From a virus, in IMG/VR virus record IMGVR_UViG_3300036768_001501, positions 1 to 64,000 of that record: 64,000 nucleotides of DNA. One strand, given 5' to 3'. How positions within the stretch are numbered: the stretch's first letter is position 1; each line of letters opens with the position of its first letter. The notes under the pieces are model-generated. The model was not told where the DNA came from. It searched no databases and worked only from the letters and a program-made list of their open reading frames with translations. The translations under genes and the position numbers were made by a program. This document shows, piece by piece, positions 32,401-62,134 of this stretch.

Positions 32401-35400
32401 GGGGCAGAAAGTTTCGTCTGATGTTGTCTTTAAGAAGATTTATCAAGATGTCATGTATGGCAGGTTCGGCAGTGAAGAGCTTTCCCAAAAGGTTCGTGGA
32501 GTTATGTCATCTGAATGGCACCGTGTGCGCACTGCGCATGATCCATTCGAGCATGCAAGGAAACACACTGGGGCCGATATTGTTGGTGACGAATTGAAGG
32601 ATGCATATATCAAGCAACGGTCATTGCATGCAATGACTCAGGATATATTCGACATCCTTCCTGGCCCAAGCCCGTACAAGTACTATGGAGTGCGTGCACC
32701 TCTATTTGTGAGTGCTGAGCCGTACGAAGAGCAAGCAAAGATTGCTCTAGTGACTCGGGCCAAGATGAAATATTTGCCAGCTTTCAAGGATAAGAATTTT
32801 ATATCCGGCATTGCCCGCTTGTACGAGATTTTCGGTGGCGTAAATCCGGCAAAGCTGATTGAAAAGGCAGAAAGCGGCAATGCGATCGCTGCGCTTGAGG
32901 CCAAGATGCTCTTGCCGAAGAAGGGCGAGGATTGGTTGCAGCACCTTGGCAAACTTATTCTTTCCCATCGCGTTGGAACATCGTTGGATATATTCGGTCG
33001 CAACATCAATGAAGCCATTCGGCGCCAACGCGAGGAGGCGCGTGCGATGCGCCGACGCATGCGCATGATGAAGAAGATTGAACAGGAAGCCAGGCGCAAT
33101 GATCCATTCGCAGATAAAAAGCTAGAGGCTGCTCTAGAGGCAGAAGAGCCGTTGAAGCGTGTTTTCTCGACAATGTATGGGCGCGCTGGCGTTAAGCTTC
33201 AAGAAAAGCAGCTAGAAAGACTTGTTGACCTGACCCTTGGTAGCGATTTCTGGGCTGCGCTACGTTACCAAGACGCGCTGGAAGTTCAGAAGAAACCAGA
33301 GCGTTTTGTTATGACCATGATGGAATTGCTCGGGTTTCCCAGCGCCTCCGTTGTTGGCATGGGTAAGCTGCCTTCGTACGAGCAGCTTGTTGAGAGCTTG
33401 GCCAAGCATGGTGATGCTTTCGTTTCTAATGCAATCGGGATTAGCAGAGATGTTGAGCGCGAGCTTCAAATGCTTGGTCTCGGTAATATTATTGCAAATG
33501 AGGTCTCTAAGGCTTCCGGCACGGAAGAGGCGGCTAAGAAGGATCGAAGCCGCAAGAAGGAAGTTGGCGCTGCGGAACTTACGCCGTCTGAGAGTGATGC
33601 CAGCAAGATTAAGAGAGCTCTGCGCAACAAGGGTACAAAGCTTAGTAAAAAGACTGCAAACATTCCGCTCACTGCCCAAGAGCTTATCGAGATGGCAGCT
33701 AATCTTGGTAAGGGGCGGCGGTCTATCCCTGAAGGCGTAGATATTGAGTCTGCATTTGAACAAAGGAAAAAGAATATCGCTGAGTTTGCGTCCTTGCTTG
33801 GTATTGATCCTAAGTCCCAAGCCGGTCAGAAGCGCTTGAAGGGCTGGGAGGAGTACCTTGAGAAGCTGAAGGAATCTGGCAACATATCTCAGCTAGTATT
33901 TCCGAACGTCGCTGAATGGCTTTTAGCAAGCGGTGTACGCGGAAGGCCGACGCCAGAAGTGGAGGAAATGAATCTGCGCATTGCCTCCTGGCTTCATGAG
34001 CACGGTCTGCTGGCTGGTACAAGCAATACGATTCTCAGGTGGCGGAAATTTTTTGAAGAGCAAGGTGGCCAGGTCACCAATGCTATTGCAAGCCAGATGA
34101 TTAAGCCTAGCAAGCCAAGCGGCCCGCAGGCGTCTGCTGTATTTACGCCAATGATGGCCGGCGGCATGTATTCTGGAATGCCGAGTGGCGGCATGTCAAT
34201 GGTTGGCGAAGGTACTTATTCGACTGGCCCGACGATGCAGTTTGGGCAATATAGCTTTACTCCGTACGCCGAGTCCGGAAGTCCGCGAGCTATGGCTGCA
34301 GGTGGTGGCGGTGGCAAGGGCGGCGGTGGCAAGGGCGGCGGAAAGAAAGGTGGTGGCTTCTTTGGATTTTTTGGTGGCGGCGGCGGCGATGACGATGGTG
34401 GAGACGATGAGGAAGAAAAGGAGCCACCTAAGAAGCAAAAGCGCGGACGCAAGAAGAAATCGAGTGAAGAAGAGATAGATTGGACTGCTCCGCGTAGCGC
34501 GACTGGCGATAAGACCATTGATTTTATTGTCGATCGCGTCACCAAGATGGTCAGCGCAATTCGTAAGCCAGAGCTTACGATGCCAGGATCGCAGGAGTCG
34601 TTTTTCCGTGAAATTGTGATGCCTGCGATCGAGGTGCTGAACGCACTTGGTGTTTCAGGGAAGCCTGTTTCCGGCCCATTGAAAGGTCGTGCTGGCAAGA
34701 AGCTGAAGAACCAGCTCAAGCAGATGGGGATCGATGTCGAGAAGATGAGTGACATCGATTTGGGCATTATTGCCGGCATGCCCAAAGATTTGTTTGATTA
34801 TCTCAAGTATCTTTTCAAGACTACGCCAGCAACGCCACGCCAACGGTCTCGTGCCAGCGAGTCGTTGGAGCATATTACCGAGACTGCGATTTTGCAGGGC
34901 AAAGTTGCTGGTGGCGAGGTAGACCTGTACCCGTGGCAAATGCAGACCATCAAGCGCCTTGCGTCTTTGCTTGGCCCAGAGGTTGGGCAATTTGCGTACG
35001 GTCTGTTCCAGATGGGCAACATGTTCAAGACGCTGACGCAGGCAAGCCAGTTGGCTGCATCGAGCCCGTCGCCATACCTGTACGAAAAGCGCGTTACGAC
35101 AGGCCCAGCTAAGCAAACTTATATAAAGGCTCGGCGCGGGAAGGCGATGGCTTCGGCTGCAGATTTGATTGCCAAGGCGGAGTCTCAGGCCGAAGCATTC
35201 AGAATGATTTCAGAAGGTGCGTCACTGCTGCCGCCTAAAGACCTAGCAAAGGCCATAGAAACATACATGAAGACAGGTGATGAGGAGGTCTTCAAGCAGA
35301 CAGTCGATTCCATGTTACGTCGTGAATCGGCTAAGACGCAGTACGAGCAGAAGATTCTACAGAAGCGCAATGTTGTTGATGAGCTTAAGCGAATCGAATT

Positions 35401-46233: not shown

Positions 46234-47748
46234 ATGCAGTTTGTGGTTTCCCTGTACTCCAGCCGAGCGATCGCTATGCCCGCAATGCGGGCGTATGAGG
46301 ATATTGAGACGTATGGCACCGTCCTGGCTGGGGTATCCCCAGGGAAACTGAAGACCGGCGAGCCAGTGCTTCCAATTCTAGCCGCGAATCCGGTCATTGT
46401 GCGTGAGATTAGTGTTTCAAGAAGGCAATCAATTGATGCCTCTGTGTCTATAGACATCTATCACACTGGGCTTGAGATTATAGATAAAGCGCGCGATGAC
46501 TATCTACGTGTGCGCATCTATGCTGCCAAGTATGATGGGACAGACGTTACGCTCCTAGACCCAGTTTTTGATGGGAGCGTTATCAATATAGCATCATCTA
46601 GGGGGCGCGGAATCATCACAATCGATGCCTCCGAGTACGATGACCGCATCGGCTCTATGTTCCCGCCAGAGCTGATTACTCGTGCCGACTTCCCCGACGC
46701 CCCAGACCTTGTTGCTGGAACCCTGAATAGGCAGATTGTGATCGGCCCGTTCCAGTACCCGATACCGGCAAGGCAAGTGGATCGCGATGGGCGTGTATTC
46801 TACATTTGCGACCCGCCGCTTTCTACTCCGCCTGCAATTGTATACGCCGACGGTAGGCTTGTGCCATCTAACAGTTACAGCTTTTTCGCTGGTCGGATGC
46901 AGAACAGCGGACTTGAGTACACTGGTCTGTTGTTCTCTCGCCCAGTGTCCGAAGTTGTTGGCAAGCCAGTGCAGTACGTGACCGTTTCGCATGGGCAAGG
47001 TATGCGCGCATCTAACGCGATTGAAGCACTGGCGCGCGTCTCTGGTATTGGTATTACGAGGCGGTTGACTGCGCTTGCGAAGGATATGGAAAGCGATTTT
47101 CCGATGTCCATCCTTCTCAATAAGCGCGATAATGCCTTCTCGATTCTCACCAAGCGCATTCTTCCGCAAACTCCATACATTACGCGCATGTACCTGGGCC
47201 TAGTTGATATTGTAGATGCGAATTTCAACAACTCACCAGTGGCTGAAATTCAGCCAGGAAATGGTTGGATTTCAGGACAGATTGGCGTTAGCCGCGCTGG
47301 TTTCGGCGATGTTGTCAATAACCTGCAGGTGAACGTTGGTATGACGCATCATGGCGGTCCGGCTCTGAGAAGGCCGCTCATGCAGATTGTCCGCAATGCG
47401 ACAAACGGACCGTACAATTTGCGCTCCATTGCAAGCCGCTCTCAATCAATCTACGGCCCGCGCGCACTCACAATTGATGCTGGTGATCTCATAGTGTACT
47501 GGGGACCTAATGGGCAGCCAATCAGTCCATCGGGGGAGCGACTGGCGAATTATATCATTCAGCACAGCGCCTTTGAGGGCGTGCGGTACACATACGCATG
47601 TTCAGATGATGCCCTTACAGTACTTAGTCTCGGTGACGTAGTGGAGTTAACAGACCCGCTGGTTGCCGAATCGACCGTGCGGGCCATAGTTGTAAGACAG
47701 GAGTTCAGCAGTGCTCCGACGATTACTTTTGAGCATATTTTTGCTTAG
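46234..47748 (+). CDS. Putative baseplate hub protein
   Basis: A 504-residue beta-rich protein directly after the large tail protein. It begins with strands typical of hub domain I ('REISVSRRQSIDASVSIDIY'), has a 'GRGIITIDASEYDDRIG' region like gp27/gpD hub folds, and ends with 'TVRAIVVRQEFSSAPTITFEHIFA', as in tail hub and tip proteins. No peptidoglycan hydrolase domain is seen. It would form the tip of the tail tube with the neighbouring protein. The end overlaps the next gene by 38 nt. Confidence 0.55.
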   Translation: MQFVVSLYSSRAIAMPAMRAYEDIETYGTVLAGVSPGKLKTGEPVLPILAANPVIVREISVSRRQSIDASVSIDIYHTGLEIIDKARDDYLRVRIYAAKYDGTDVTLLDPVFDGSVINIASSRGRGIITIDASEYDDRIGSMFPPELITRADFPDAPDLVAGTLNRQIVIGPFQYPIPARQVDRDGRVFYICDPPLSTPPAIVYADGRLVPSNSYSFFAGRMQNSGLEYTGLLFSRPVSEVVGKPVQYVTVSHGQGMRASNAIEALARVSGIGITRRLTALAKDMESDFPMSILLNKRDNAFSILTKRILPQTPYITRMYLGLVDIVDANFNNSPVAEIQPGNGWISGQIGVSRAGFGDVVNNLQVNVGMTHHGGPALRRPLMQIVRNATNGPYNLRSIASRSQSIYGPRALTIDAGDLIVYWGPNGQPISPSGERLANYIIQHSAFEGVRYTYACSDDALTVLSLGDVVELTDPLVAESTVRAIVVRQEFSSAPTITFEHIFA

Positions 47749-48097
47749 TTTGCCGGCGCACGCGCAGGTCAAGCCGCCAGCTATTGGCGACATTATGATG
47801 TCGTCGCCGGATGTCAGGAATTTGACAGAATCCTGCGTGCTGGCATTTTCCAAGCAAAAGAGGCAGTTTATCTGCGCGATCCGGATAGATGTTCAACTTT
47901 CTCCAGGGCGTGAAACACTTGTGTTCAATCCTTATGTTACTCAAGATAAGAAAGTCCTATGCGGTTGTGCGTACGGCTGTAACCCACAGGGTATGGTGCT
48001 CGGGTACTATTCGGTGTCCAATGTAGATAATGGCGGATTCAAAATTGACCACGCCTATGCAATTGGGAACGAAAAGATTAGTTGTATTGTGTATTAG
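47711..48097 (+). CDS. Sec-exported small Cys-containing protein
   Basis: A 128-residue protein starting at GTG inside the end of the hub gene. N-terminus MLRRLLLSIFLLSLPAHA-Q is a model signal peptide with cleavage after AHA. The mature part is ~110 residues, beta-rich, with cysteines at 'LCGCAYGCNPQG' and two more, probably disulphide-bonded outside the cytoplasm. It is the first of the exported gene group. Function not recognised. Confidence 0.7.
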   Translation: MLRRLLLSIFLLSLPAHAQVKPPAIGDIMMSSPDVRNLTESCVLAFSKQKRQFICAIRIDVQLSPGRETLVFNPYVTQDKKVLCGCAYGCNPQGMVLGYYSVSNVDNGGFKIDHAYAIGNEKISCIVY

Positions 48098-48136: not shown

Positions 48137-48445
48137 ATGGCACCCGAAACCCGCGACGCAATTGCTATCGCAATTATCTGGTTGCTGATGCAGCTTCTTA
48201 AGGTTGCCAAGCGAAAGTTTGGGGATCGTGTGCCTGTCCTGAAGGGCATTGATGAGGATCAGCTTAAGAAGTTAATTCCTATTCTCTCCCTACTTTTGGC
48301 TGGTGGTGGGTACGCGGCTGGCGCACTAGACGACCCACAGAGTGCAGTGGCTGTTGGTGGTTTGGCTGTAGCGGCCAACGAGGTTGGCAAGGCGACGGGT
48401 CGTCTAGTGCGCTCTATTGCTGGGAAGCCAAATGACCAACAATGA
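48137..48445 (+). CDS. Holin-like membrane protein
   Basis: A 102-residue protein with two hydrophobic segments ('AIAIAIIWLLMQLL' at ~8-21; 'LIPILSLLLAGGGYAAGAL' at ~45-63) and a third weaker Ala/Val-rich one, plus a basic C-terminus. The layout fits small phage holins that permeabilise the inner membrane. SD AGAGAGG precedes the ATG. The next gene encodes a wall hydrolase and overlaps by 14 nt, supporting a lysis role. Confidence 0.65.
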   Translation: MAPETRDAIAIAIIWLLMQLLKVAKRKFGDRVPVLKGIDEDQLKKLIPILSLLLAGGGYAAGALDDPQSAVAVGGLAVAANEVGKATGRLVRSIAGKPNDQQ

Positions 48446-48878
48446 ATACCTGCTCCTTCTCACCCTTGATGAGCTTGCTTTACTGCGCGGCCTTATCGCT
48501 GGCGAGGCCGAGGGGGAGCCGTACGTCGGCCAGGTGGCTGTGGCGTACGTCGCAAAAAACCGTGTCAAATATTCAAAGCAGGCCCTGGTTCCCTGGTGGC
48601 CCAGGAGCCTTAAGCAAGTCATTCTCCAGAAGCACCAGTTTTCCTGTTTTTGGGAAGACTGGGACAAAAGACGCAAAATCATTCTTGAGGCCATTCATTC
48701 GCCGGAGAAGTACCAGAGGATCGATATGGCCGCGAAGGATGCTTACTATGAGCGGCTTCCTGACCCGACCCTGGGGGCGGATCATTACTTTTCCATCAAT
48801 ATTAAGCTGCCAAAGTGGGTAAAGTCAATGACGAAAACAGTGAGAATTGGGCGCCATGAATTCTACAAGTCAATCTAG
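48432..48878 (+). CDS. SleB/CwlJ-type cell wall hydrolase (endolysin)
   Basis: A 148-residue protein from the ATG at 48432. It has the Hydrolase_2 (SleB-like) pattern: 'LRGLIAGEAEGEPYVGQVAVAYVAKNRV' (quoted by ends, residues ~18-46) with the catalytic Glu of 'GEAEGEP', then a 'QVILQKHQFSCFWE' segment and a 'GADHYF' end, all family hallmarks. It should cleave peptidoglycan. It has no signal peptide, so release depends on the adjacent holin candidate. Confidence 0.85.
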   Translation: MTNNEYLLLLTLDELALLRGLIAGEAEGEPYVGQVAVAYVAKNRVKYSKQALVPWWPRSLKQVILQKHQFSCFWEDWDKRRKIILEAIHSPEKYQRIDMAAKDAYYERLPDPTLGADHYFSINIKLPKWVKSMTKTVRIGRHEFYKSI

Positions 48879-49266
48879 TGGTACTAAGACAAGGAAGAGG
48901 GGAAACGGCAGGTCCTGCGCCGAGATTGAGGTGCTAGCTAACCGCCTTGACATGCTAGAGAAGACTGTTGAGGGGCTGGCGCACTTGTCTCAGCAGATTG
49001 CCGAGATGTCGGCACAGATGAACGGCATCAAGGCGGATTTGTCGCGGCTGATTCTCCATGTGGAGAATCCAGCAAGCGCTGATCGTTCTCTGATTGTTCG
49101 GATCAAGAGCGTGGAAGATAAACTGTCATCTATTGAAGATACCATTGGGAAAGCTAGTGATTTTGCTCGTCAGGTTGGCGTTAGACTGCTTGTGTACTTT
49201 ATTGCTGGCATGGTGAGCGGCGGGGCTACGATTGCTGCCGTCCTGAAAGTACTTGCGGAGCACTGA
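48856..49266 (+). CDS. Coiled-coil protein with C-terminal membrane segment
   Basis: A 136-residue protein from the ATG at 48856, overlapping the hydrolase gene by 23 nt. The N-terminus is basic and disordered, residues ~25-95 form a coiled coil ('LDMLEKTVEGLAHLSQQIAEM'), and the C-terminus has one hydrophobic helix ('LLVYFIAGMVSGGATIAAVL'). This resembles XhlA-like accessory lysis proteins. A spanin-like role is the alternative. Confidence 0.6.
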   Translation: MNSTSQSSGTKTRKRGNGRSCAEIEVLANRLDMLEKTVEGLAHLSQQIAEMSAQMNGIKADLSRLILHVENPASADRSLIVRIKSVEDKLSSIEDTIGKASDFARQVGVRLLVYFIAGMVSGGATIAAVLKVLAEH

Positions 49267-49268
49267 GC

Positions 49269-50084
49269 ATGAGGAGAATCCTGGGATTAGCTCTAGGCGT
49301 ATTTCTTTTGCTTACCACGCGGGTGGCAAGTGCGCAGATTTATTATTTGATGCCTGGGGACTTGGTTCCTGCTTCTAGTGTTGCGCCAATTAATTTTCAA
49401 ATTGTTGATCCAACATTCAATGGCGTAACGGTGAATGGGCGGAGTCGTTGGCCGTATGCGCAAACAGGGTTTATGGCAAATGCATATCAGTCTGGATCGC
49501 CGAATTTTGATGACGCGACCAACTACGATTACGGTGTTATGTTCGTGGTGCATCCTGAATTTGTTGGTCGTGATGATTCTTCAACCTTCCCGACAGTCGT
49601 GATTAAAGAAAGAGTGGTTTTCTTTTCGCTGGGAAACGCTGCAAGCTCATTTTCCCCACAGTATGTGTGTTTTAAGTTTCGCTACCAATGGATCAATGAC
49701 GGCTCCTCTATTAATGAAGCAAACAACTTTCGACCTGCGTCTGGATGGGGAGATAGCACTAATTGCGTGGATATAACAAATAAGCCTGCGCGTGAAATGA
49801 TTAAAAGCGTGGTGACTATTCCAACTACAGTGATTGATGCAGCAACCAGTGGCAGTTGTACGCCTGGTACTACGCGGTGTCCACGCGGGACGTTAATCGG
49901 ACACATTTATCGTATACGCGCTAACGACATGTGTGGAGGTTCTGGTACACCATTTACCTGTTGCACTGGCAATGGCACTGGAAACTGTTGCGATGGGCCA
50001 TCTAACAGCGCAACAGCATGTAACATTCAACAAGAAAGCGTGCCAATCTGGGGCGTGAAGCTAGTTGTTGATGGTGGCCTATGA
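49269..50084 (+). CDS. Sec-exported protein 1 of a related triplet
   Basis: A 271-residue protein with a signal peptide (RRILGLALGVFLLLTTRVASA-Q). The mature part is beta-rich, with a Cys-rich tail (CGGSGTPFTCCTGNG ... CNIQQES) followed by a closing strand 'WGVKLVV'. The next two genes have the same architecture: signal peptide, beta domain, C-x-C/CC cluster, final 'GV-x-[LH]' strand. They are probably paralogs. The function is unknown; extracellular binding or adhesion is plausible. Confidence 0.75.
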   Translation: MRRILGLALGVFLLLTTRVASAQIYYLMPGDLVPASSVAPINFQIVDPTFNGVTVNGRSRWPYAQTGFMANAYQSGSPNFDDATNYDYGVMFVVHPEFVGRDDSSTFPTVVIKERVVFFSLGNAASSFSPQYVCFKFRYQWINDGSSINEANNFRPASGWGDSTNCVDITNKPAREMIKSVVTIPTTVIDAATSGSCTPGTTRCPRGTLIGHIYRIRANDMCGGSGTPFTCCTGNGTGNCCDGPSNSATACNIQQESVPIWGVKLVVDGGL

Positions 50085-50770
50085 CTACGGTGCGTGCTTT
50101 TGCAATTTTACTTTGTATATTTCTGTTGCCAGCCGGAGTTAATGCGCAGCTTGCTTACGGCAAGGGCTTCGTGCCGGCGACTGCTCTTTTCCCCTCTTCC
50201 GGAACATCGTGTACTCTACAGAGTTCCATTGGGGACAATACGGTTAAGAACAGAACATACTGGTGGAGCTGCACTGTCGGTAGCTCAACCACGGCGCGGT
50301 TCTCCTTTGTATCACCAGCGCTTGGGGCGACTTATGGGCAAGCTGCCGTTGCTGTGCGGATTATGAACTCCAACACGGCAGCGAAGGACATTTGCGCGGT
50401 TTTTTCTAGCCATGCCTACTTTTCGGCTGGCGCATTGCAAGTGAACCAGACGGGTTCAAACTGGCGTAATACCGCATGGACCGGCGGCTCATTGGGGAAC
50501 GCCCAACAGGTAACAATTTCTGCAAACACAACTCCGTGGTTGCTAATGGCAGCGCCGTCTGCGTCTGCCGCTGGCCCATCAATCATTGATGTTATGAACG
50601 CTTCCCCATCCCCAGCTTCGTCGGCAAATGAAATTGTTGTTCGTGAGGTAATCATTGGTGGGTGCAGCAACTTTTGTAGCGGGACAACACCGCCTACATG
50701 CTGTAACCCTAGTAGTTGCTCTTCAGACTATTCAGGTACGGTGAGAATCTATGGGGTTCATTTTTACTAA
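50081..50770 (+). CDS. Sec-exported protein 2 of a related triplet
   Basis: A 229-residue protein with signal peptide ending LLPAGVNA-Q. Mature domain is beta-rich with paired cysteines ('TSCTLQSS ... YWWSCTV') and a terminal cluster (CSNFCSGTTPPTCCNPSSC) followed by 'RIYGVHFY'. Start overlaps the previous stop (ATGA), so the genes are coupled. Similar in layout to both neighbours. No family recognised. Confidence 0.75.
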   Translation: MTTVRAFAILLCIFLLPAGVNAQLAYGKGFVPATALFPSSGTSCTLQSSIGDNTVKNRTYWWSCTVGSSTTARFSFVSPALGATYGQAAVAVRIMNSNTAAKDICAVFSSHAYFSAGALQVNQTGSNWRNTAWTGGSLGNAQQVTISANTTPWLLMAAPSASAAGPSIIDVMNASPSPASSANEIVVREVIIGGCSNFCSGTTPPTCCNPSSCSSDYSGTVRIYGVHFY

Positions 50771-51470
50771 TGCAGTTGCGTTGCTGTTTTTGGCCAGCGT
50801 GGCTCAGGCCATCAGCTATACGTACACTTATGGCCCACAGTCTCTGATTGTGCAGCCAATGCTGGACGGCTCTACGGACGCTCCGAGTGATTGCGTATTG
50901 ATCAATGACACTTTAGTTGCTGGCACGACCAGCCCTCATGCGCGCGTTCTGTACTGTAGGAATAATGAGGACCAGAACAATGAAGGTGTTTTTGGCATTC
51001 ATGGGATTGTGCCAGTAGGGGCTACGCGCTTTGATATTATCGTTGATGTATACTCAGAGAGTGCTTCTAGTGGAAATCTTTGCGCTGTGGTGAACAATAC
51101 GGTCATTGCGCAGTGGGCTTTTACCGACGCTGGTATAAAGCAGGGGGTGCGATACGATAGTGGGCCGGATGACTCTTTTGTGTCTGGCCTTTCTGGTGTT
51201 CTTGGCCCAGTTGCGGTGTCTGGAGCCAAAAGGCGCGTAAAGTTGAGCGCTAATAATGTGCAGTTGGCTTACATTGATAGTATTGGCAATCGCCAATACT
51301 GCGGTGGTACGATATGCAATGAGCAGTACTTCCGCATGGAAGTGTACATTCAGGGATGCCAGAGGCTTTGTTCGTTTGTATCCCCGCAATTTTCATGTTG
51401 CGGCACTAGCTCATGTACCGATATTGGCAAAGTAAAAGTCCTTGGCGTGACCCTGAATTTACATGACTAA
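50751..51470 (+). CDS. Sec-exported protein 3 of a related triplet
   Basis: A 239-residue protein with signal peptide (FIFTNAVALLFLASVAQA-I). Beta-rich mature part with cysteines spaced as in the previous protein and a C-terminal cluster (CQRLCSFVSPQFSCCGTSSC) followed by 'KVLGVTLNL'. Overlaps the preceding gene by 20 nt. The C-terminal CxxxC...CC...C pattern shared by the triplet may form a disulphide-knotted cap. Confidence 0.75.
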   Translation: MGFIFTNAVALLFLASVAQAISYTYTYGPQSLIVQPMLDGSTDAPSDCVLINDTLVAGTTSPHARVLYCRNNEDQNNEGVFGIHGIVPVGATRFDIIVDVYSESASSGNLCAVVNNTVIAQWAFTDAGIKQGVRYDSGPDDSFVSGLSGVLGPVAVSGAKRRVKLSANNVQLAYIDSIGNRQYCGGTICNEQYFRMEVYIQGCQRLCSFVSPQFSCCGTSSCTDIGKVKVLGVTLNLHD

Positions 51471-51488: not shown

Positions 51489-54400
51489 TTGTGGCTTGGT
51501 GTAGCAACACTATTGGCGATTTTCTCGTTGGCAACCAGTGCGCTTGCGCAGCAAGCGCAAACTGCCGTTCAATTATCTGGGGGTCCAAACACTCAATCTT
51601 ATATTGAACTTCCTGGTAGCGTCACCTACCATAGCAGTACAGGGATTTCGCTTTCCGCCTGGATCAAGTGGGATGGGAAGCGCTATTCTGGAGCTAGCGA
51701 GGCCGACTGGATGTCGGTCATATTCAAGGGGAATTTTAGCTCCGGTGCTTATGGTATTCTAATTAGCCGCTCCGACAGCAATAGCTCCAACGAGATTCGC
51801 TGTTACTACGGCTCTGGTGCTTATGTATCTTACGCTGTAACAAGTGGTCTTGATACTAACTGGCACCATATCGCGTGTACCATTGCGCCAAGTCCTAGTA
51901 ATAACGTCAAGATATACCTAGACGGCTCTGTTGTTGCGAACCAGGCCGTTACTTTTTCCATTACTGACAATACTGCTTGGCCACTCCGCATTGGTGGTCA
52001 TAACGGTTCACAGTACTATTATTTCGGCGGCCTGATTGATGATGTACGTATCCACAGTTCTGCTGTAGCGTCGACCGAGATTTCCGGCTTTTACAATAGC
52101 GGCAATGGTACGTGCCAAAATACAGGCGCTTTGTCTTTCTATTATCCTCTGGACGGTCATGGCACGAACATGGTTGGGACAAGCGGGGATTATACAAATA
52201 TTGTCAATGCGTCCTGGTCACCGAGCGGGAAACTTGATTGTCGTGGCGGTAAGTTCGGTCGCGATTCGGCTGGCACAGAGACAACAACATACTTGGAGTT
52301 AGCCGATTCCACTTCGCTTGACCCGTCCACGACCATGACCGTTGAGGCGTGGTTCAAGTGGGACGGCGCTACGGCAGGTGCGCCAAACGACTGGATGTCG
52401 ATTGTCTCCAAGGGGACATATAGCAGCGGCGAGTATGTCATTCTCATGAACCGCGCATCTAATACGTCTCAGCGCGAGCTGCGTTGTTATTTCACCAACA
52501 GCTATGTAAGTACTTATGTTCCTGTTGATCTGCTGACGAGCTGGAACTACGTTGCCTGCACTCGCAACTCCTCCCAGATGAAGATTTATCTAAACGGGCA
52601 GCTTATGAGCACAGTGACGGCCCCGGCCTCGCAAGCAAACAATACGTCGCCATTGCGTATTGGCGTCCAGTCCGATGGCGGGTATCGGTTTGTCGGCCTG
52701 ATTGACGATGTGCGCGTTTATAATTCCGAGCTCAGTGCTTATGATATTTACCGTAGGTACAACATGGGTGGTGGTCCATGCGACGTATCTACGTCAGCAA
52801 ATCCGTTCTTTGTTGCCACGCTAAATGGCGGGCGTAGAGTAGCGGTTGGTACTAGTGGCACGCCGACGCTTGCAACTCTGTCTTCAACATCACCGCTTTG
52901 GGATACTGGTATTGTGCCGTGCGCCGATATTCCAGACCAGATTGCTGGCGGGCAGGAGATTCAGTTTACCCCAACGCCGACCAGAACACCAACGAACACG
53001 CATACACCTAGCCGTACTCCAACCAATACCCCCACGAACACACCAACTAACACCCCGACATTTACACCAACGAGAACCAATACTCCGACAAACACACCAA
53101 CTAGTACTCCAACCCCAACCGTAACTCCACTCGGCGGCGGTCAGGAAGTGCAATTCACTAGCACGCCAACTAGGACCCCGACTAACACACCGACTAACAC
53201 GCCTACATTCACGCACACGCATACACCAACCAACACCCCTACGAATACACCAACTAATACTCACACAAATACACCAACTAATACTCCCACAAGGACGCCG
53301 ACGAACACACCTACGAACACGCCAACAAGCACTCCTACTCCCACGGTGACTCCACTTGGTGGTGGACAAGAGGTTCAATTCACTAGTACCCCGACAAGAA
53401 CACCAACTAATACGTCCACTCAAACACCAACTAACACGCCCACTCGCACGCCAACCCACACGCCAACTAACACACCAACATTTACATTTACAAATACTCC
53501 AACCAGAACACCAACGAATACACCTACGAACACTCCGACAAACACACCAACTAGTACTCCAACCCCAACCGTAACTCCACTCGGCGGCGGTCAGGAAGTG
53601 CAATTCACTAGCACGCCAACTAGGACCCCGACTAACACACCGACTCGCACGCCGACTAACACGCCAACTAGGACATCAACAAGCACTCCAACCAATACTC
53701 CAACCAGCACGCCGACTTCAACCTCAACGCGAACTTATACCCCGACTAACACGCCGACCAGTACGCCGACCCCTACGGTTACCCCGCTCGGCGGCGGGCA
53801 GGAGGTTCAGTTCACAGCTACTCCCACACGTACCCCGACCGGGACGCCGACTAACACGCCGACCGGTACACCGACTTACACCCCAACGCGGACGCCCACA
53901 AACACGCCAACAAATACTCCAACAAATACGCCCACCCAGACATCGACGCAGACACCAACGCCGACCGTAACCCCACTAGGTGGCGGGCAGGAGATTCAGT
54001 TCACAGCTACCCCTACCAGGACTTATACCAGAACCCAGACCATGACGCCGACCGTGACTAATACCGTAACTCCAACCAGGACCAGTACGCCAACCATTAC
54101 GCCAACTAGTACTCCAACCCCAACCGTAACCCCACTCGGTGGTGGTCAGGAAGTGCAGTTCACCAGCACCCCGACAAGGACCCCGACAAATACGCCCACT
54201 CGAACACCAACAAACACTAGCACCGTTACACCGACACGAACGCCTACCCCAACATCAAGCCCAACTACTACGGTAACCAGTACTAGTACGCCAACAGTTA
54301 CCCCGACGCCAACGGCGACTCCACTAGGTGGTGGTCAGGAAATTCAGTTTACCGCTACGCCTACGCGCACTTTCACCCCAAGCATTACACCTACCGGAAC

Positions 54401-55313
54401 CATTCCGCCCTCAAGCACACCAACCAGGACACAAACACCGAGCAATACTCCAACGGTAACACCTACGCCCACCCAAACACCGCTCGGTGGCGGGCAGGAG
54501 ATTCAGTTCACAGCTACCCCTACCAGGACTTATACGTTTACTCCAAGCCCATCTCACACTGCTACATTTACCCCGACAGATACTCCAACTGGTCAACCCA
54601 CAAGTACGCCCACACGCACGCCAACGTCGACTGTTACCGGACTGCCAACGAATACACCAACTGCAACTCCAACTCCGACAGTTACGCCGCTCGGCGGTGG
54701 GCAAGAGGTGCAGTTTACCCCAACTCGTACAGCAACTGGCACACCTACGCCTACATCTACGCTAACGCCGACTGGCACTCCAACTGATACGGCAACGCCA
54801 ACGCCCACCCCGCTTTATTCTTATACACCTACGCCGCTCGCTACCCCAACACCATCGCCTTTAGGTGGCGGTCAAGAGGTGCAGTTTACGCCAACCAGAA
54901 CCGTTACGCCCACGCCTACAATGACCAACACAATGACCCCAACCCCAACGAATGTGCCGACCAGGACTCCGACTCCGACATTGCCTGGCACTTATACACC
55001 TACGCCCATCACGACGCCGACCCCGAAGCGCGAAGAGAAGGTCACCACGCACAGGCTGTTTGCGGACTGCGCTGACTTCACTACTCAGACCGGAGCCTGG
55101 GTGACTAGATATTTGACTTTCTCAAGACAGCCGTACGACGGTAGCGTTGCGTACTGCTGGCTACCTGGTGGCGGTGGTAGGATTATGTCAATGGATACCC
55201 GAATTACTTCCGCGCATGCATTCCTAACTATCGGAATTTACGCAACTAGGCCAGGCAATCCGCGATTACGGGCTTGCTGTCTGATTTACAGTTCCGAGCA
55301 GAGGTTTGAATGA
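51489..55313 (+). CDS. Exported double-LamG protein on a Pro/Thr repeat stalk
   Basis: A 1,274-residue protein. Signal peptide [20 protein letters not shown] starts at a TTG; an ATG with a more basic beginning lies 7 nt upstream in another frame. Residues ~22-190 and ~240-415 are two LamG/concanavalin-like domains ('[12 protein letters not shown]', 'NWHHIACTI', 'KIYLDGSVV', 'GLIDDVRI' and matching second set), which usually bind carbohydrate or protein. Residues ~484-1177 are a Pro/Thr stalk with eleven GGQE(V/I)QFT motifs, ten of them preceded by PLG, 40-70 residues apart. The last ~97 residues form a Cys domain ([14 protein letters not shown] ... CCLIY) shared with the protein at 60669. A long extracellular adhesin-like molecule is the simplest reading. 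Confidence 0.8.
52942..55020 (+). repeat. Pro/Thr (TPTxTPT) coding repeat with GGQEVQFT units
   Basis: About 2.1 kb of DNA codes almost only for Thr, Pro, Asn, Ser and Arg in a TPT register, interrupted eleven times by GGQE(V/I)QFT. A 114-bp stretch (53082-53195) is repeated without change at 53532-53645, exactly 450 bp (150 codons) later. Confidence 0.9.
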
Positions 55314-55358: not shown

Positions 55359-56429
55359 ATGAAGAGAGCAATTTTGGCCCTAGCTCTTATGTTTGTAGCT
55401 TCTATTTCTCGTGCTGCCTGGCGCGAGGAGGTGAACGGCATCAATGGCGTGCCGATGCCGTCGCGCATGACGCAGTTTGACGTAGATGACAATGGTGATA
55501 TTTATGTAGCCCAAACGTCGTTTACCGCTGACCGGCACGGCCTTGCTGTTGTGAGGCGCATCCACAACCGTATCTCCGACGTTGTGTTTGCCTATGAAAC
55601 CAGGGCAACGGGAATTGGTTGCACCGTGTTACTGGATATTCGGAACGGCCATAAGCTTGTCTATTTCATGTGCAGTAGCAGCGAACGTGGGGTTTACGAC
55701 ATTGACGCAGGTACGACTAACCCAGTTCCGTACCTGAATCAGCCAATGCGCATGCTGGCACTGAACGACGGACTGTATTTTTCGCCATACGCCCAGCTTG
55801 TGAAGTTGGCGGACGGAACGTTGTCAACAGTGTTTGGTAGCGGGACTCGGTTCGCTTGCGATTCCTCCGGTACCGATGCTCCACTCATCAGCTCTATGGC
55901 CTATCTAAATAAGTGGTATTTTGCTGAAACTGCTTGTTATGGGATCGGATCGCTTTGGCGCCTGAACGGCAGGGGCGCGGAGCGGATTACCAGCTTTACC
56001 GGCGCACAACCAAGTGTTGGACAAAGTATAATCGGAAGCAAAGTGCAGTCACCCGCTCTTGATGGTCGCGGCAATCTCTTGGCCGTACTGGATCGCGCTA
56101 CGTCAACAGTTTATCTTTTGGGCGAAGACCTGGTTGTGACAGGAGCCGTTGACTCTGTGCCGGTTTCTTCTGGTTCGTTTGCGCGCGTAATTCTCGGGCC
56201 ACGTCGTGTGTACGTGCTGGACGTGCAGCGGGAGACTATCTATTCGGAACAGATTCCTGGCATGCCGGAGCCGACCAACACGCCTGAGGTTCCTACGGCC
56301 ACGCCGACAAGTCCACCGGTTCCAACGAACACGCCAGAGCCAACCGCGACAGTGCCTGCACCTGTGTGTCCGGCTGCGGTTTGTGATGCACTAAGATCAG
56401 CCGCAACGCTTTGCGGGTGTAACTTGTAA
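55359..56429 (+). CDS. Sec-exported beta-propeller-like protein with Pro/Thr tail
   Basis: A 356-residue protein from the ATG at 55359. It has signal peptide MKRAILALALMFVASISRA. The body contains repeated strand motifs ('TQFDVDDNGDIYVAQTSF', 'SPALDGRGNLLAVLDRATSTVYLL') reminiscent of NHL/SMP-30-like propellers. A Pro/Thr linker (residues ~300-335) leads to a small Cys cluster (CPAAVCDALRSAATLCGCNL). It shares the 'domain-PT linker-Cys end' architecture with other exported proteins of this group. Confidence 0.75.
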   Translation: MKRAILALALMFVASISRAAWREEVNGINGVPMPSRMTQFDVDDNGDIYVAQTSFTADRHGLAVVRRIHNRISDVVFAYETRATGIGCTVLLDIRNGHKLVYFMCSSSERGVYDIDAGTTNPVPYLNQPMRMLALNDGLYFSPYAQLVKLADGTLSTVFGSGTRFACDSSGTDAPLISSMAYLNKWYFAETACYGIGSLWRLNGRGAERITSFTGAQPSVGQSIIGSKVQSPALDGRGNLLAVLDRATSTVYLLGEDLVVTGAVDSVPVSSGSFARVILGPRRVYVLDVQRETIYSEQIPGMPEPTNTPEVPTATPTSPPVPTNTPEPTATVPAPVCPAAVCDALRSAATLCGCNL

Positions 56430-56448: not shown

Positions 56449-56940
56449 ATGGTGTACGTGCTTCTCGTGTGTTCGTGGCTGTTCACTAGCGTTGCTTATG
56501 CACAAGCAGATCGTGGCCTCGGGATTCAGACAGCGGCTACGCCAACCGCCGTGATTGATGCGCATTGTTATAACTATAACGGGGAACAAAGGTGCGCTGA
56601 CAAGATTATTGATTCCCCACGCTGGAACCGCATCTACCAAGGCCCATTTGTAGGCGGTACTCCTGGTACGCCTACACCGGCGATACCACCAACACCGACG
56701 GTTGGGGCTGGTACGCCAACGCCTATTCCTGCTTCCTGGTGCTACTGTTGCGCTAGGGGTCCGACACCTAATACGGGGCGAGTCTTGGTGTCCGTTGGTC
56801 CACAACCGTGGGGTGGCCCTGGTATTTATTTATCGGACTCGGATTGCGTGCGCTATCCCGCTCCGGCAACAGGTGATTGTTCCAACTTGTACGTAACCAG
56901 GCAGAACGTAGGAGACTACGTACGATGCGACATGCAGTAA
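56449..56940 (+). CDS. Sec-exported small Cys-rich protein
   Basis: A 163-residue protein with signal peptide (VYVLLVCSWLFTSVAYA-Q), a short beta/Cys region, a Pro/Thr/Gly linker (GTPGTPTPAIPPTPTVGAG) and a Cys domain (WCYCCARG ... CVRYPAP ... CSNLYV). SD AAGGAG upstream. It overlaps the fibre-like gene by 16 nt. Function unknown. Confidence 0.65.
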   Translation: MVYVLLVCSWLFTSVAYAQADRGLGIQTAATPTAVIDAHCYNYNGEQRCADKIIDSPRWNRIYQGPFVGGTPGTPTPAIPPTPTVGAGTPTPIPASWCYCCARGPTPNTGRVLVSVGPQPWGGPGIYLSDSDCVRYPAPATGDCSNLYVTRQNVGDYVRCDMQ

Positions 56941-59900
56941 TCTCAATTGGGCTTGTCGGCCTAATGTGCGCGCTTGTTGTCAACGCGCAGCCGCGCGTAG
57001 ATGATGCCTACTCAGATAGCGAAGCACGCAGATCGATTCAGGCCTCTCCACCACTATCTTATGATTCTTCCACTGGCACAATGTCATTACCGCAAACCGT
57101 ATGGCCGCTTACTTGGGGCGGCACGAATAACGGGGCACTTACAGATAGCCCAACTGGACAGGTTCTGCGTGTAGTTGGCGGCCAGGTCGTTAATGCACCA
57201 GTTCCGCAAGCTGATATTGCGAGTGCGTTCGCCCTGTATGTTGACCCAGCCGGTACCGATGGCCCCGAGTGTGGCCCAATCAACAAACCGTGTAAAACGA
57301 TTACAGGGCCGCAGGGTGTGCATGCGCGGATTCTGGCGAATAATGACAATGGGGCTTTTACATGTTCTAACGACAATGCCAAAAGTTGCATGCGCTGTGC
57401 TGGCGGTACGAATTCAGGGGCGACATGCAACGAGCATCGCGATTGTACCGGAGGCGGTGTGTGTTCAACGCTTGTGTGCAGTGGTACGGATACACCATGC
57501 ATGAAATACTGTTCAACGAGCGATATTGGCTGCTCAATTGACAATGATTGCCCATCGAATGAAACATGTTCCCGTACTCATCCGTCGTCACCGTGTGCAG
57601 CGGCATCATGTGTCAATGGCCCCAGGAGTTGGTGCGGTGGTGGTGCATGTAATATATTCGCAACTAAGACCTATGCGATTAACTTAGCTGTAGGCCAGTA
57701 CAATGAATGGATTGGCTTTGCGTGCCAAGGAAATCAGAATATCCAATGCCACACCGATGCGGACTGCGGAGCGAACGGTCCATGTATTGATACAACAGTA
57801 AAATCTATTCCATCCCCTGGCTGGCTTACGTACATTGGGCCAGATCGGCAATCGGCGGCAATTATTTCTGGATCAAGCATTGCAACGATGTATGTTTCCA
57901 ACAGGCTTACCCTCGCGTTTCGGCGTTTGCAAATAATAAATGTCGGCAACGGAAACGCGTTATGGTTTGCTGGTGATGTGTGGGGCGCGGGCGTAACACA
58001 TAGCGGGCTAGTTCACTGGGGTGACGGATACGATGCCATTATTTCTGGCCCAGGCAATGTTACAGTAGGTTTTGACGATATTTGGACGTACGGTTTTAGC
58101 TCAAATGCTTCATTTCGCTCTATTCGCATTGAGCACGACAGCGCACTGGTATGTGCTAATAACACGCAATTTTCATGTTTGTCCGATGCTGATTGTCCGG
58201 GGTCATCGTGTGTTAAGAATAGGCGTTTTGGGTCAAGCGGCGCGATCCAATCTGTTATATCTCCACGTGCATCCGGTGGATCTGGTGACTCTATAATTGA
58301 TTTTGCATTTATTCAGGGAGGATCTAAAGTAACAGCAGATTATCAAGGGCAAGTTGAGTTTGTGTTTAATCGTTGTGCTAGTGGCTTTAACACTGGCATT
58401 GTGCGCAGCTTGATTAATGGATTCTCGTTCCCATCGCCGTACAAACATGCCGCTTTGGTAGCTATTCGTGGTCCATGCCAGTCAAACAATGCTTTCATAT
58501 CTGGAGGTATATCCCAGGTGTCAGTACGAGATACAACTTTTGCGAAGTTGCGTTCGATTCCAGATAGGTCGCCGTTGTACGATATGATTATTGGTGACAA
58601 AGTTGATATGCTCTATGCTGGCAACGTCGCGTATAATGCCTGCCGTCGGCGCTTCGAGGGCACGGGCACGATTAGATATATTGACCCGAACGCCAGGACC
58701 ACTGATCTTGGCCAGCGCTGGGGAGGCAATGCTGGCGGTTATCTTGGGGTGCTTGACTGTGACCAACCGCAGACCACAACGCTTGCTTCGCCGACAGTGA
58801 CACTCTCGCAAACTACGGGCGGTACACTTAGCAATGGGACTTACTGTTATCGCGCGACCGCTGTGAGCGAGTTCGGGGAAACTGTCGCCGGCGATGCTGC
58901 ATGTATCACGCTTAGCGGCTGCAGTTCGAATTGCGCCGTGGCAATTACGGTGAACCAGGTTCATGGTGCCACTGGGTGGAAGATTTACGGACGACCGACT
59001 ACATCCGGAGGCACGTTCGGGCTTTTGCAGACGCTCTCTAGCTGGTCGTCGAATACATGGACGGATACTGGTGGTGGCACACCTGGCGCTGCACCGCCTA
59101 GTACAGATAGCTCTGCGCAACCGAATCCTATCGATGGCGAACTGTGGATGTCCAAGGTTGGCACGCGATATATCCCACGTTACCGTTCCGGTGGCACAAC
59201 TTATTCGATTCCAATCGGGCAAACCGGTGATGGGACTAACAACGGCGGTACGGTTGGATTTTTTACGCCTGACGGAACGCAGTTCGCGTCAATTTTAGAC
59301 GTACCAGCTTTTTCCTTTACGCTATATCAAACTAATCGCGCCACTGTAGGTATTGGTATTAATGGCACCGGCCTGCTGTCATGTAGTACTTTTGATAGTA
59401 ACAGATGCTCAGTTCCCAATGCCCCAATCTCGGCGAACCATATAGCCAACAAGTCGTATGTGGATACGAGCAAGCGTACGCTCCTGCTTTCGCCGATGGC
59501 ATTCACTGCTGCTACGGCCTGCACGCAGGATGTTGTCGCACCAAGTGGGAATACCCCAGGATATAGTTATCTTTCCTGCCCTGATGCCGCCGGGTCGGAA
59601 TTCTCGGTCGTTTTTTCCATGCCAGACGGATGGTCAGGGTCAGCGCTTGCAGTAGCGCCTGTTGCGTTACATCGCGATTCCGCGAGCAACACGCTTGCGA
59701 TTGATTGGAGTTGTAAGTGTGTTTCCTCGGGGTCTGCGATTACCGCTGCCTATGGCACGACGGCTACGACGTCGCAAACGGCATCGAGTGCAGATACTGT
59801 GACGCAGGCCACGTTCACTAATATTACCTGTGCGGGTACATGTAGTGGCACGTCAACTGTGGCGTTGCGTGGAGTTGTGAATACTACCAGCAGTAGCTGG

Positions 59901-59963
59901 ACCAACGATCCGCGCATTCTCGGGGTAGAGGTGCGGTATGATCGGTCGGCGCATTCTGACTAG
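56925..59963 (+). CDS. Tail-fibre-like protein with signal peptide
   Basis: A 1,012-residue protein from the ATG at 56925 (SD GGAGA); signal peptide MRHAVISIGLVGLMCALVVNA-Q. The N-terminal part reads like phage fibre segments ('SPPLSYDSSTGTMSL'). Residues ~105-620 look like a right-handed beta-helix ('ALYVDPAGTDGPECG-x-INKPCKTI' start) with insertions carrying C-x-x-D-x-D-C repeats (~145-285 and ~415). Residues ~623-728 are an Ig-like domain like those in the connector and tail tube. 'ANHIANKSYVDTSK' (~835-848) matches the 'KAYVD' motif of tail fibres. A C-terminal beta domain ends the protein. A fibre with a Sec signal is unexpected: fibres are normally assembled in the cytoplasm. Confidence 0.75.
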   Translation: MRHAVISIGLVGLMCALVVNAQPRVDDAYSDSEARRSIQASPPLSYDSSTGTMSLPQTVWPLTWGGTNNGALTDSPTGQVLRVVGGQVVNAPVPQADIASAFALYVDPAGTDGPECGPINKPCKTITGPQGVHARILANNDNGAFTCSNDNAKSCMRCAGGTNSGATCNEHRDCTGGGVCSTLVCSGTDTPCMKYCSTSDIGCSIDNDCPSNETCSRTHPSSPCAAASCVNGPRSWCGGGACNIFATKTYAINLAVGQYNEWIGFACQGNQNIQCHTDADCGANGPCIDTTVKSIPSPGWLTYIGPDRQSAAIISGSSIATMYVSNRLTLAFRRLQIINVGNGNALWFAGDVWGAGVTHSGLVHWGDGYDAIISGPGNVTVGFDDIWTYGFSSNASFRSIRIEHDSALVCANNTQFSCLSDADCPGSSCVKNRRFGSSGAIQSVISPRASGGSGDSIIDFAFIQGGSKVTADYQGQVEFVFNRCASGFNTGIVRSLINGFSFPSPYKHAALVAIRGPCQSNNAFISGGISQVSVRDTTFAKLRSIPDRSPLYDMIIGDKVDMLYAGNVAYNACRRRFEGTGTIRYIDPNARTTDLGQRWGGNAGGYLGVLDCDQPQTTTLASPTVTLSQTTGGTLSNGTYCYRATAVSEFGETVAGDAACITLSGCSSNCAVAITVNQVHGATGWKIYGRPTTSGGTFGLLQTLSSWSSNTWTDTGGGTPGAAPPSTDSSAQPNPIDGELWMSKVGTRYIPRYRSGGTTYSIPIGQTGDGTNNGGTVGFFTPDGTQFASILDVPAFSFTLYQTNRATVGIGINGTGLLSCSTFDSNRCSVPNAPISANHIANKSYVDTSKRTLLLSPMAFTAATACTQDVVAPSGNTPGYSYLSCPDAAGSEFSVVFSMPDGWSGSALAVAPVALHRDSASNTLAIDWSCKCVSSGSAITAAYGTTATTSQTASSADTVTQATFTNITCAGTCSGTSTVALRGVVNTTSSSWTNDPRILGVEVRYDRSAHSD

Positions 59964-60657
59964 TGTTGCGTGCCTGTCACTCGTGTCCAGCGAGGCACTA
60001 GCCTACACGTACTTGCAGGTCTGCAACGCCGGAAGCACAACCTTTACTACGTCCATAAGTTGTAGTGGCAATGTTCCCGGCATGGGGGCGGTCGTTGTTG
60101 CTCATTCTTCTGATAATACCTCCGGATACAGTATTACATCATCATGGGCAAGCGCCAGCCCCTTGAGTAGTACACTTGAGGTCAACAATGGCGCTAATCT
60201 TGATGGAGTTGGGCGAACATTCAGTGTGCCGTCTGCAGCAACTGGAGCAGCATGGTCAGGTTCTTTTACGGATAGTGTACGTGTCAAAAACATATGCGTT
60301 GCGCATATAGCACACACGAGGGTTTTCAATCTGACTCAAACACAAACAGCGACTGGTAGCGGCACGACTGTCTCTGTGCCTGCAGCCACTACGAGCTGCC
60401 CTTCTGGCTATACTATGGCAACGATTGTGTCTGTAATGACATACTCTGGCTCTGCGCCGACCTTATCGGGCACTGGGACGCAACTCTGCGGCATAGATAA
60501 CTTTGTCTCCTCGACGCATCGCGCCACATTCCAGCACGGGTACGATGGCAGCAATGCATTCAGTGGCACGCTGTCGGTATCTGCAACGTGGGTGGCGATA
60601 GCTTATCGTTTTTGCCCGAAACGCAACATAGCGGGGTGGATTGGGACAACTGACTGA
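59938..60657 (+). CDS. Sec-exported beta-rich protein
   Basis: A 239-residue protein starting at ATG inside the end of the fibre-like gene (26-nt overlap). Signal peptide GRRILTSVACLSLVSSEALA-Y. The mature part is Ser/Thr-rich with regularly spaced strands and four to six cysteines, and ends with 'VSATWVAIAYRFCPKRN'. Typical of small bacteriophage or surface beta-sandwich proteins. Function not recognised. Confidence 0.7.
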   Translation: MIGRRILTSVACLSLVSSEALAYTYLQVCNAGSTTFTTSISCSGNVPGMGAVVVAHSSDNTSGYSITSSWASASPLSSTLEVNNGANLDGVGRTFSVPSAATGAAWSGSFTDSVRVKNICVAHIAHTRVFNLTQTQTATGSGTTVSVPAATTSCPSGYTMATIVSVMTYSGSAPTLSGTGTQLCGIDNFVSSTHRATFQHGYDGSNAFSGTLSVSATWVAIAYRFCPKRNIAGWIGTTD

Positions 60658-60668
60658 GGAGCAGATGA

Positions 60669-61751
60669 TTGAAGCGGGCGGTCGGGATACCGATTTGTGT
60701 CGTTGTGGCGCTAGCGATTTATGTTATTGCTACGCGCCCAAGCAAAGTTGGCGCTTATCCTCGTCCATTTTGGTTCGGTGCACCGACAAGTACGCCTACC
60801 CCTACCAATACCCCTACACATACCCCTACGGATACGCCAACGAACACCCCAACGAACACGCCCACCAGCACGCCAACGAACACCTCGACCCATACGCCCA
60901 CCTTGCCCCCCACAAGCACCCCAACCAATACTCCGACAAGCACGCCAACTTCAACACCAACGCGAACTTATACCCCGACCAGCACGCCGACTAATACGCC
61001 GACGAGTATCCCTACAGAGACACCGACTAACACGCCAACAAATACGCCAACACCTACGTCTACGCCGATTGGCGGCGGACAAGAAGTACAGTTTACCGCT
61101 ACACCGACAAGGACACCGACGAGTACAAGCACCAGTACGTCTACAGGAACTCCAACATATTCACCAACGCCTACAGCATCTCCGACATATACTTTTACGC
61201 CTACCGCTACCCCAACAGCCACGCCAACACTCGGGCCGAACGACTGCTGTGAGTGGCTTGAGTCCGGCACATGGCAGGCCTGCGCAATTCCAGTGGCCGG
61301 CATTTGTCCTACAGGGGCAACTGGCGTGTACGGTGCCAGGTGCGTTGACGGCGTATGTTCAACAACGCCAATTGGGAACTGTCCACCGACGCCAACGCGC
61401 ACACCGACACCAACGGAGACACCAATTGAGGTTGGCGGCGGATCAACGTTCGGCAATACATATCCGCGTGAGGAGATTGTTACAACGTATCGGCTGCAGA
61501 ACGGCTGCATAAATATAACAGTAAGCGGTTCGTCTACGGCTGTGTTCTACGTTCCGCCCAACGTCCCTGTTCCAAATTTGTCATCTTATGTAGTACACTG
61601 TAGTGTGTCTGGCAATCAGTATCTAAGCGTTGACGAGATTGCGATGGTAACCGACAGTTACGCAGTGGTTTGGGTTTCGAACGCATCGGCCTCGATGCAG
61701 GGAGGACAACTATGTTGTCTCTTCTACAATCAATCGCAGTTATATCCTTAA
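60669..61751 (+). CDS. Sec-exported Pro/Thr stalk protein
   Basis: A 360-residue protein from a TTG with SD GAGGAG. N-terminus [21 protein letters not shown] is an uncleaved anchor or signal peptide (possible cleavage after KVGA). Residues ~38-195 are a TPT repeat with one GGGQEVQFT unit, followed by a Cys domain ([13 protein letters not shown] ... CVDGVC) and a C-terminal domain ([14 protein letters not shown] ... CCLFY) homologous to the end of the LamG protein at 51489. The two proteins are therefore built from the same stalk and cap parts, one with LamG heads and one without. Confidence 0.75.
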
Positions 61752-62134
61752 TGCTTCTTGCCTCCTGCCGCGCTATTGAGTTCAACGATAGCAGCAGGAA
61801 CGTAGTCTACGAGAAGTTCGGTGGTTTTGTCCCCTGCCTGCTTGACCAGGATGCGGACAATCTCAGATGGTGCGAGATGGACATGATTGGTGCTGTCGGG
61901 TTTCATGTCCTGATGGACCCAAGCGGGAACTCCGTGCTCTCCGCAACTGATACTTATAAGATCGAGTACGCGCCAAATCCATCCGAAGGGCGTGCGCCAC
62001 TTTGTCTTGGCAAGCCGTTATCGTGGAAGAATCGTTATATAATTCCTGCCGGGTACGTATTCTCTATTGGCAGCAAGGTTTTTGTGCCGTGTAGCATCGG
62101 CGGTACGCAGCTATATGGGAAAATTGTGGATTAG
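61712..62134 (+). CDS. Predicted lipoprotein
   Basis: A 140-residue protein from the ATG at 61712 (SD GGAGG). N-terminus [19 protein letters not shown] contains a lipobox (L-A-S-C19), so it should be lipid-modified on the outer face of a membrane. The mature part is ~120 residues with three more cysteines and beta-strand character. It overlaps the stalk protein by 40 nt. Phage lipoproteins often block superinfection or serve as Rz1-type spanins, but this one is larger than a spanin. Confidence 0.7.

Follow-up and report, generated by a model that had tools for sequence, protein, structure and literature searches.

The 64,000-nucleotide stretch analysed here (the window; positions 1 to 64,000 of IMG/VR record IMGVR_UViG_3300036768_001501) belongs to a 91.5-kb tailed-phage record (G000), and the gene under study, 56925-59963, encodes a large fibre-like protein with a predicted Sec signal peptide and many cysteines. 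Its preferred start codon has AGGAG on the 5' side, and the homologue in contig L002 begins at the same point. The Sec signal proposed by the first-pass annotation (MRHAVISIGLVGLMCALVVNA, before QPRVDD) is kept in all four homologues, and the protein lacks a lipobox. The C-x-x-D-x-D-C repeats pointed out at the same time are also present, the strict form occurring three times (residues 203, 275, and 418), against an average of 0.006 and never more than 1 copy in 20,000 shuffled versions of the protein; CAGGTNSGATCNEHRDCTGGGVC makes a fourth repeat of looser form. Overall, there are 43 cysteines, 42 of them in the predicted mature protein, and 43/43 are conserved across the four homologues. This corresponds to a cysteine content of 4.2%, compared with a median of 0.16% in ordinary fibres (n = 101). 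Fibre motifs lie at both ends, PLSYDSSTG at the N-terminal side and the expected NKSYVD towards the C terminus. The protein resembles tail fibres with NDxxNKxYVD and GGTG/PLSYNSSTG in its motifs, large modular architecture, late-gene position, and cassette exchange, and differs from them in its predicted signal and its mature cysteines, since ordinary fibres show a signal in 0/101 cases and have almost no cysteine.

The domain-by-domain homology search gave a mixed picture. An Ig-like domain had been predicted, and residues 622-709 were indeed 44% identical to a phage "baseplate protein" and also matched FN3-like repeats of a bacterial genome. Among phage records, this FN3-like segment was the only match apart from the N-terminal fibre motif, whose best counterpart, DSRARSSISATNPLSYNNSTGVISI in a signal-less 1146-amino-acid open reading frame (ORF) of an uncultured 636-kb phage, is weak when taken alone (E = 0.02). 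The cysteine segments found bacterial matches, described below. Searches of Pfam, NCBIfam, and PDB with the whole protein were empty, no sub-region had a significant Pfam match, PHROGs gave only a weak match (E = 0.06), and searches for a cellular homologue of the body found none. Selection on the gene is strongly purifying: dN/dS (the ratio of nonsynonymous to synonymous substitution rates) ranges from 0.08 to 0.13 among the four homologues, with the lowest values in the N-terminal domain (0.02-0.04) and the highest in the middle, residues 293-612 (0.13-0.30). Such a gradient would be expected if one end were conserved for attachment and the body faced a ligand. Beyond what the first-pass annotation had described, the neighbours at 47.7-62.1 kb appear to be exported too, the gene moves between unrelated phages as part of a cassette, and proteins of this kind turn up repeatedly in IMG/VR.

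The only close homologues of the protein are found in two contigs of the same metagenome, which come from a different, siphovirus-like phage. Outside the cassette (Table 1), we detected no nucleotide similarity between the two phages, which also have the neighbour 55359 in common at 34% amino acid identity. In the siphovirus, as in the window, the cassette comes after lysis genes, here coding for a small holin-like protein and a PG_binding_1 endolysin; it forms a low-GC island there (GC of 0.56-0.57 versus 0.65-0.69), i.e., it is compositionally foreign. In L019, a related siphovirus contig of another metagenome, the 55359 homologue is retained and a different exported-looking ORF lies downstream, so the slot itself seems to be exchanged. 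As judged from these comparisons, part of the exported run moves as a cassette between unrelated phages. The siphovirus proteins of the 55359 type carry a Hjc-like nuclease N terminus fused in frame (L003:8180-9508), spanning the expected signal peptide. One of the two contigs (G002; IMGVR_UViG_3300036768_000756, 68 kb) consists of two phage units of ~33.7 kb placed head to tail and 80-86% identical, which may represent prophages in tandem, a concatemer, or related genomes joined in a chimeric assembly.

Besides terminase, portal, HK97-type capsid, and adaptor genes, the window phage encodes a 3907-amino-acid Cys-free protein and other tail-type proteins, after which comes the lysis set. About 10 signal-peptide proteins, between 47.7 and 62.1 kb, sit around and downstream of the holin and endolysin genes. 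Phage-type genes continue past this run (by sequence, a sliding clamp and an SNF2-type helicase), indicating that the run is internal to the phage and not a host flank. All 10 non-lipoprotein N termini of the run show n-h-c signal architecture and a signal-peptidase-type site by our heuristic, and a stricter rule was satisfied by 6/11 run proteins versus 3/65 ORFs elsewhere in the window phage (Fisher test; P = 1.5e-4). In controls, the rule called 0/101 fibres and 7/528 (1.3%) of the other ORFs from fibre contigs. The C-terminal domains of the neighbouring exported proteins showed no link to that of 56925 by profile comparison.

Table 1. Features of the exported run, the lysis set, and the gene 56925-59963 (window coordinates; export is predicted from the N terminus)
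Feature	Coordinates	Strand	Remarks
Small exported Cys protein	47711-48097	+	Directly before the lysis genes
Holin-like transmembrane protein	48137-48445	+	Inferred from sequence and position
SleB-type endolysin	48417-48878	+	PF07486, E = 2.4e-18
Coiled-coil protein with C-terminal transmembrane segment, holin/lysis type	48847-49266	+	Inferred
Exported protein with CGGSGTPFTCCTGNGTGNC motif	49269-50084	+
Exported Cys-rich protein	50081-50770	+
Exported Cys-rich protein	50751-51470	+	C-terminal segment related to 50081-50770
Exported protein with two LamG domains (Laminin_G_3), then long PT-rich repeats with GGGQEVQFT	51489-55313	+
Exported protein	55359-56429	+	Siphovirus homologue at 34-35% identity
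Exported Cys protein, 163 amino acids	56449-56940	+	86-88% identity to siphovirus homologues
Cassette of four genes in common with siphovirus contigs G001/G002	56476-61003	+	~81% nucleotide identity; longest match L004
Fibre-like exported protein, 1012 amino acids	56925-59963	+	Frame open from TTG 56877; ATG 56925 preferred
Predicted Sec signal peptide MRHAVISIGLVGLMCALVVNA, residues 1-21	56925-56987	+	Cleavage before QPRVDD; from sequence, heuristic, not SignalP
Phage-fibre motif DSEARRSIQASPPLSYDSSTGTMSL (PLSYDSSTG), residues 29-55 region	57009-57089	+	Match in huge-phage ORF
Cys-rich region with CxxDxDC-type repeats, residues 116-292	57270-57800	+
Further Cys repeat CANNTQFSCLSDADCPGSSC, residues 410-429	58152-58211	+
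FN3/Ig-like domain, residues 622-709	58788-59051	+	Sequence matches
NKSYVD fibre motif, residues 842-847, then 165-residue C-terminal domain	59448-59465	+
Exported protein, 239 amino acids	59938-60657	+	76-84% identity to siphovirus homologues
Exported protein with PT-rich linker	60669-61751	+	N terminus in common with siphovirus
Putative lipoprotein, lipobox LASC	61670-62134	+	Likely start ~61712; outside the shared cassette; lipobox by eye

We scanned IMG/VR with a DNA pattern for CCTGxGTGxC, the motif of the neighbour 49269. The resulting set was reached through this one cysteine motif and is not a census, and some of the example ORFs sit close to contig ends. The scan returned 49 loci, including 42 ORFs with the extended motif C....PxxCCTG, which is mostly preceded by N..C even though the pattern did not require it. 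The strict signal rule was satisfied by 18 of the 28 distinct intact CCTG ORFs and by none of the 101 NDAANKxYVD fibres (Fisher test; P = 3e-15), a control set defined by a single motif and taken from the first 120 loci of that scan. Signals are also overrepresented among the remaining ORFs of CCTG phages (29/261; P = 3e-9), suggesting that several exported proteins per phage are common in this group. Three cases serve as examples. In L165, signal, CCTG, and GQGGTGVATLNDAG are joined within a single 815-amino-acid protein, and a head-closure gene lies on the same contig. In L161, a row of three Cys proteins, each bearing a signal and showing TTLNF..C..C-type stretches, one of them carrying NDPVSKSYVDA, is followed by a 1513-amino-acid protein with 11 CxxDxDC-type repeats. 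The signal-bearing L171 has a body 41-42% identical to a protein (the CRP-603 gp59 family) encoded between the coat and tail genes of cultured Roseobacter phages, whose forms lack both the signal and the Cys insertion. Elsewhere, CCTG ORFs adjoin or lie near TerL and portal (L180), portal (L157 and L182), tail-completion/neck and major tail protein (L154), baseplate assembly protein (L176), and DUF2460 (L184) genes.

Long ORFs of Deltaproteobacteria/Binatota, Acidobacteriota, Planctomycetota, and Myxococcota contain the same motif; among random genomes sampled from each phylum, it was rare. The exported bacterial proteins share the Cys motifs (NxxC....PxxCCTGxGTGxC and CxxDxDC) with the phage proteins, and those inspected have signal peptides as well; they differ in their bodies, some of which include CxxCH or PT-rich parts, and no fibre motif was seen in them. 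The best match to the Cys repeats of 56925-59963 is a signal-bearing protein from a genome of the Binatus-soli phylum, where CAGGPSAGAACSIDRDCPGGTC is close to CAGGTNSGATCNEHRDCTGGGVC. The match in L140, to residues 143-242 (E = 7.7e-5), has a Sec signal and CxGGxxxGxxCxxxxDCxGGxC-type repeats. In a chromosomal protein of Candidatus Binatus soli, CCTG repeats occur together with PT-rich linkers resembling those of 51489 and 60669. The first-pass annotation had called the repeats eukaryote-like and compared them with exported proteins of Myxococcota-like bacteria. The first label is not the best one, because the closest repeats found are bacterial; the comparison holds for exported bacterial proteins, with the best match in the Binatus-soli phylum and not in Myxococcota in particular. 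The tape-measure protein of the siphovirus has weak relatives in the Binatus-soli phylum (27-31% for longer matches). The Cys motifs and the bacterial proteins that carry them tentatively suggest a host in the circle of Binatota, Acidobacteriota, Planctomycetota, and Myxococcota.

Glutamine is the first residue of 5/10 predicted mature N termini in the run, a Q-rule-like bias as in Bacteroidetes that is not strong in the wider set (8/44) and contrasts with the Cys motifs, which point to other phyla. Signal-peptide proteins of the Q-rule type, dependent on the host Sec system and of unknown function, are described in Porphyromonas gingivalis phages (PMC10367356); several window proteins are like them in beginning with glutamine after the predicted cleavage, whereas the P. 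gingivalis proteins come from phages of other hosts and are not described as fibre-like or Cys-repeat proteins (PMC10367356). In 51489-55313, GGGQEVQFT repeats split the PT-rich linker into blocks, possibly by repeat expansion, and the repeat is found once in 60669-61751.

Other features of the two phages lie away from the run. The window phage has a processivity-factor-like protein (1863-3164, minus strand), a second sliding-clamp-like protein (L005:563-1741, minus strand), and SbcCD-like genes. An ARAGORN tRNA-Ile call at 33390-33484 falls within the 3907-amino-acid ORF and is probably false. Near the record end, at least six paralogous ORFs of 125-184 amino acids (YKVVR...) stand in tandem (L006:6373-10255; G000 86373-90255), with a relative in the siphovirus (L002:10784-11500). 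A reverse-transcriptase-like gene (L005:14212-15309; G000 77212-78309) has a degenerate paralogue just upstream, and despite its presence nearby no A-biased template/variable repeat pair of a diversity-generating retroelement was found.

We consider it probable, at roughly 0.6, that 56925-59963 is a fibre-derived protein that is exported, oxidised, and deployed outside the cytoplasm. Two origins had been put forward for it. A fibre retargeted for export fits the joint presence of fibre motifs, a Sec signal, and exported-type Cys repeats in one protein under the purifying selection described above; the other, a host surface protein with fibre parts attached, is less likely, given that only the FN3 and Cys segments match cellular proteins, and the body does not. 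The gene would thus encode an adhesin re-engineered for the extracytoplasmic space. It would be made together with the late genes and leave the cytoplasm through the host Sec system; oxidation of its 42 mature cysteines would follow in the periplasm, and it may trimerise as other fibres do. Holin and endolysin would then open the cell and let the adhesin go, with the fast-evolving middle (residues 293-612) probably binding host surface ligands. For the last step, we favour attachment to virions at or after lysis over free receptor masking, because of the size and number of the proteins, their fibre motifs, the structural-module neighbours in other phages, and the L171 case; attachment is nevertheless a tentative proposal, held at somewhat less than even odds.

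Several points weigh against this account. We know of no mechanism by which a Sec-exported protein joins a tailed virion assembled in the cytoplasm. The window phage also encodes signal-less tail-type proteins (at 41144 and 46234), so it may not need the exported proteins as virion fibres. Signal calls come from a home-made rule and not from SignalP, and the protein and its homologues all stem from uncultured phages. AlphaFold models reached a pLDDT (predicted local distance difference test score) of only 28 for the whole protein and 45 for the C-terminal 171 residues, too low to support a trimer or the beta-helix of the first-pass annotation, which the Pfam searches of sub-regions did not confirm either. 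Foldseek found nothing below an E value of 1 from these models, a result that we discarded because the models had failed.

The most serious competitor, somewhat less likely than virion attachment, is that the exported proteins remain unattached, in the periplasm or at the cell surface, and mask the phage receptor or glycans, which would block superinfection and keep progeny from sticking to debris. Export itself, the position after the lysis genes, and the putative lipoprotein 61670 that closes the run agree with this, and there is a precedent in T5 Llp, a periplasmic lipoprotein that acts on FhuA by allostery and abolishes infection, its gene being adjacent to and downstream of the receptor-binding protein gene (PMC9586334). 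The window proteins are like Llp and Cor in being phage-encoded, exported, and near receptor-binding and late genes (PMC9586334). However, proteins of the Llp type are tiny lipoproteins, while here there are about 10 proteins of up to 1274 amino acids, 56925-59963 has no lipobox, and expression alongside the lysis genes would come late if the role were superinfection exclusion.

Lysogenic or pseudolysogenic conversion, in which exported adhesins alter the surface or aggregation of the infected cell to its benefit, seems improbable: the LamG and PT-rich stalk proteins do resemble bacterial surface adhesins, and the Candidatus Binatus soli protein likewise joins the CCTG motif with PT-rich linkers, but no integrase-like ORF was found in the window phage or the siphovirus (by a simple, non-exhaustive motif scan), the window phage encodes replication functions of its own, and the exported genes are grouped with lysis and late genes. 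Slightly less probable still is an ordinary virion fibre whose hydrophobic N terminus is a structural anchor and not a cleaved signal. Fibre motifs and late position are what this would predict; the signal architecture common to all 10 N termini and absent from ordinary fibres is not, and the high, invariant cysteine content fits folding under oxidising conditions. We regard as least likely a captured host surface gene cluster with little relation to fibres, for which the Cys repeats and the CCTG motif shared with exported bacterial proteins would speak, since the body has no cellular homologue, fibre motifs occur at both ends, and similar proteins recur inside the structural modules of other phages.

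Exported phage proteins are already known (Llp, the Q-rule proteins, and SAR [signal-arrest-release] endolysins [PMC4640515]). As a class, exported Cys-repeat fibre-like proteins appear new, no earlier description having been found in the openly accessible part of the literature. The signature of signal peptide, CxxDxDC or CCTGxGTGxC, and fibre motif can be used to search for further cases, and the set points to phages of poorly cultured phyla.

By current understanding, the fibres of tailed phages fold and are assembled in the reducing cytoplasm and stay there until the cell bursts. A class of tailed phages in which fibres leave the cytoplasm through Sec, acquire disulfide bonds in the periplasm, and join virions no earlier than lysis is, on present evidence, a rather unlikely proposition; if true, tailed-phage assembly would include an extracytoplasmic step. 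A recurrent and transferable set of Sec-exported, disulfide-rich, fibre-like proteins would imply either that virion assembly includes a step in the periplasm or that large proteins mask receptors in a new way.

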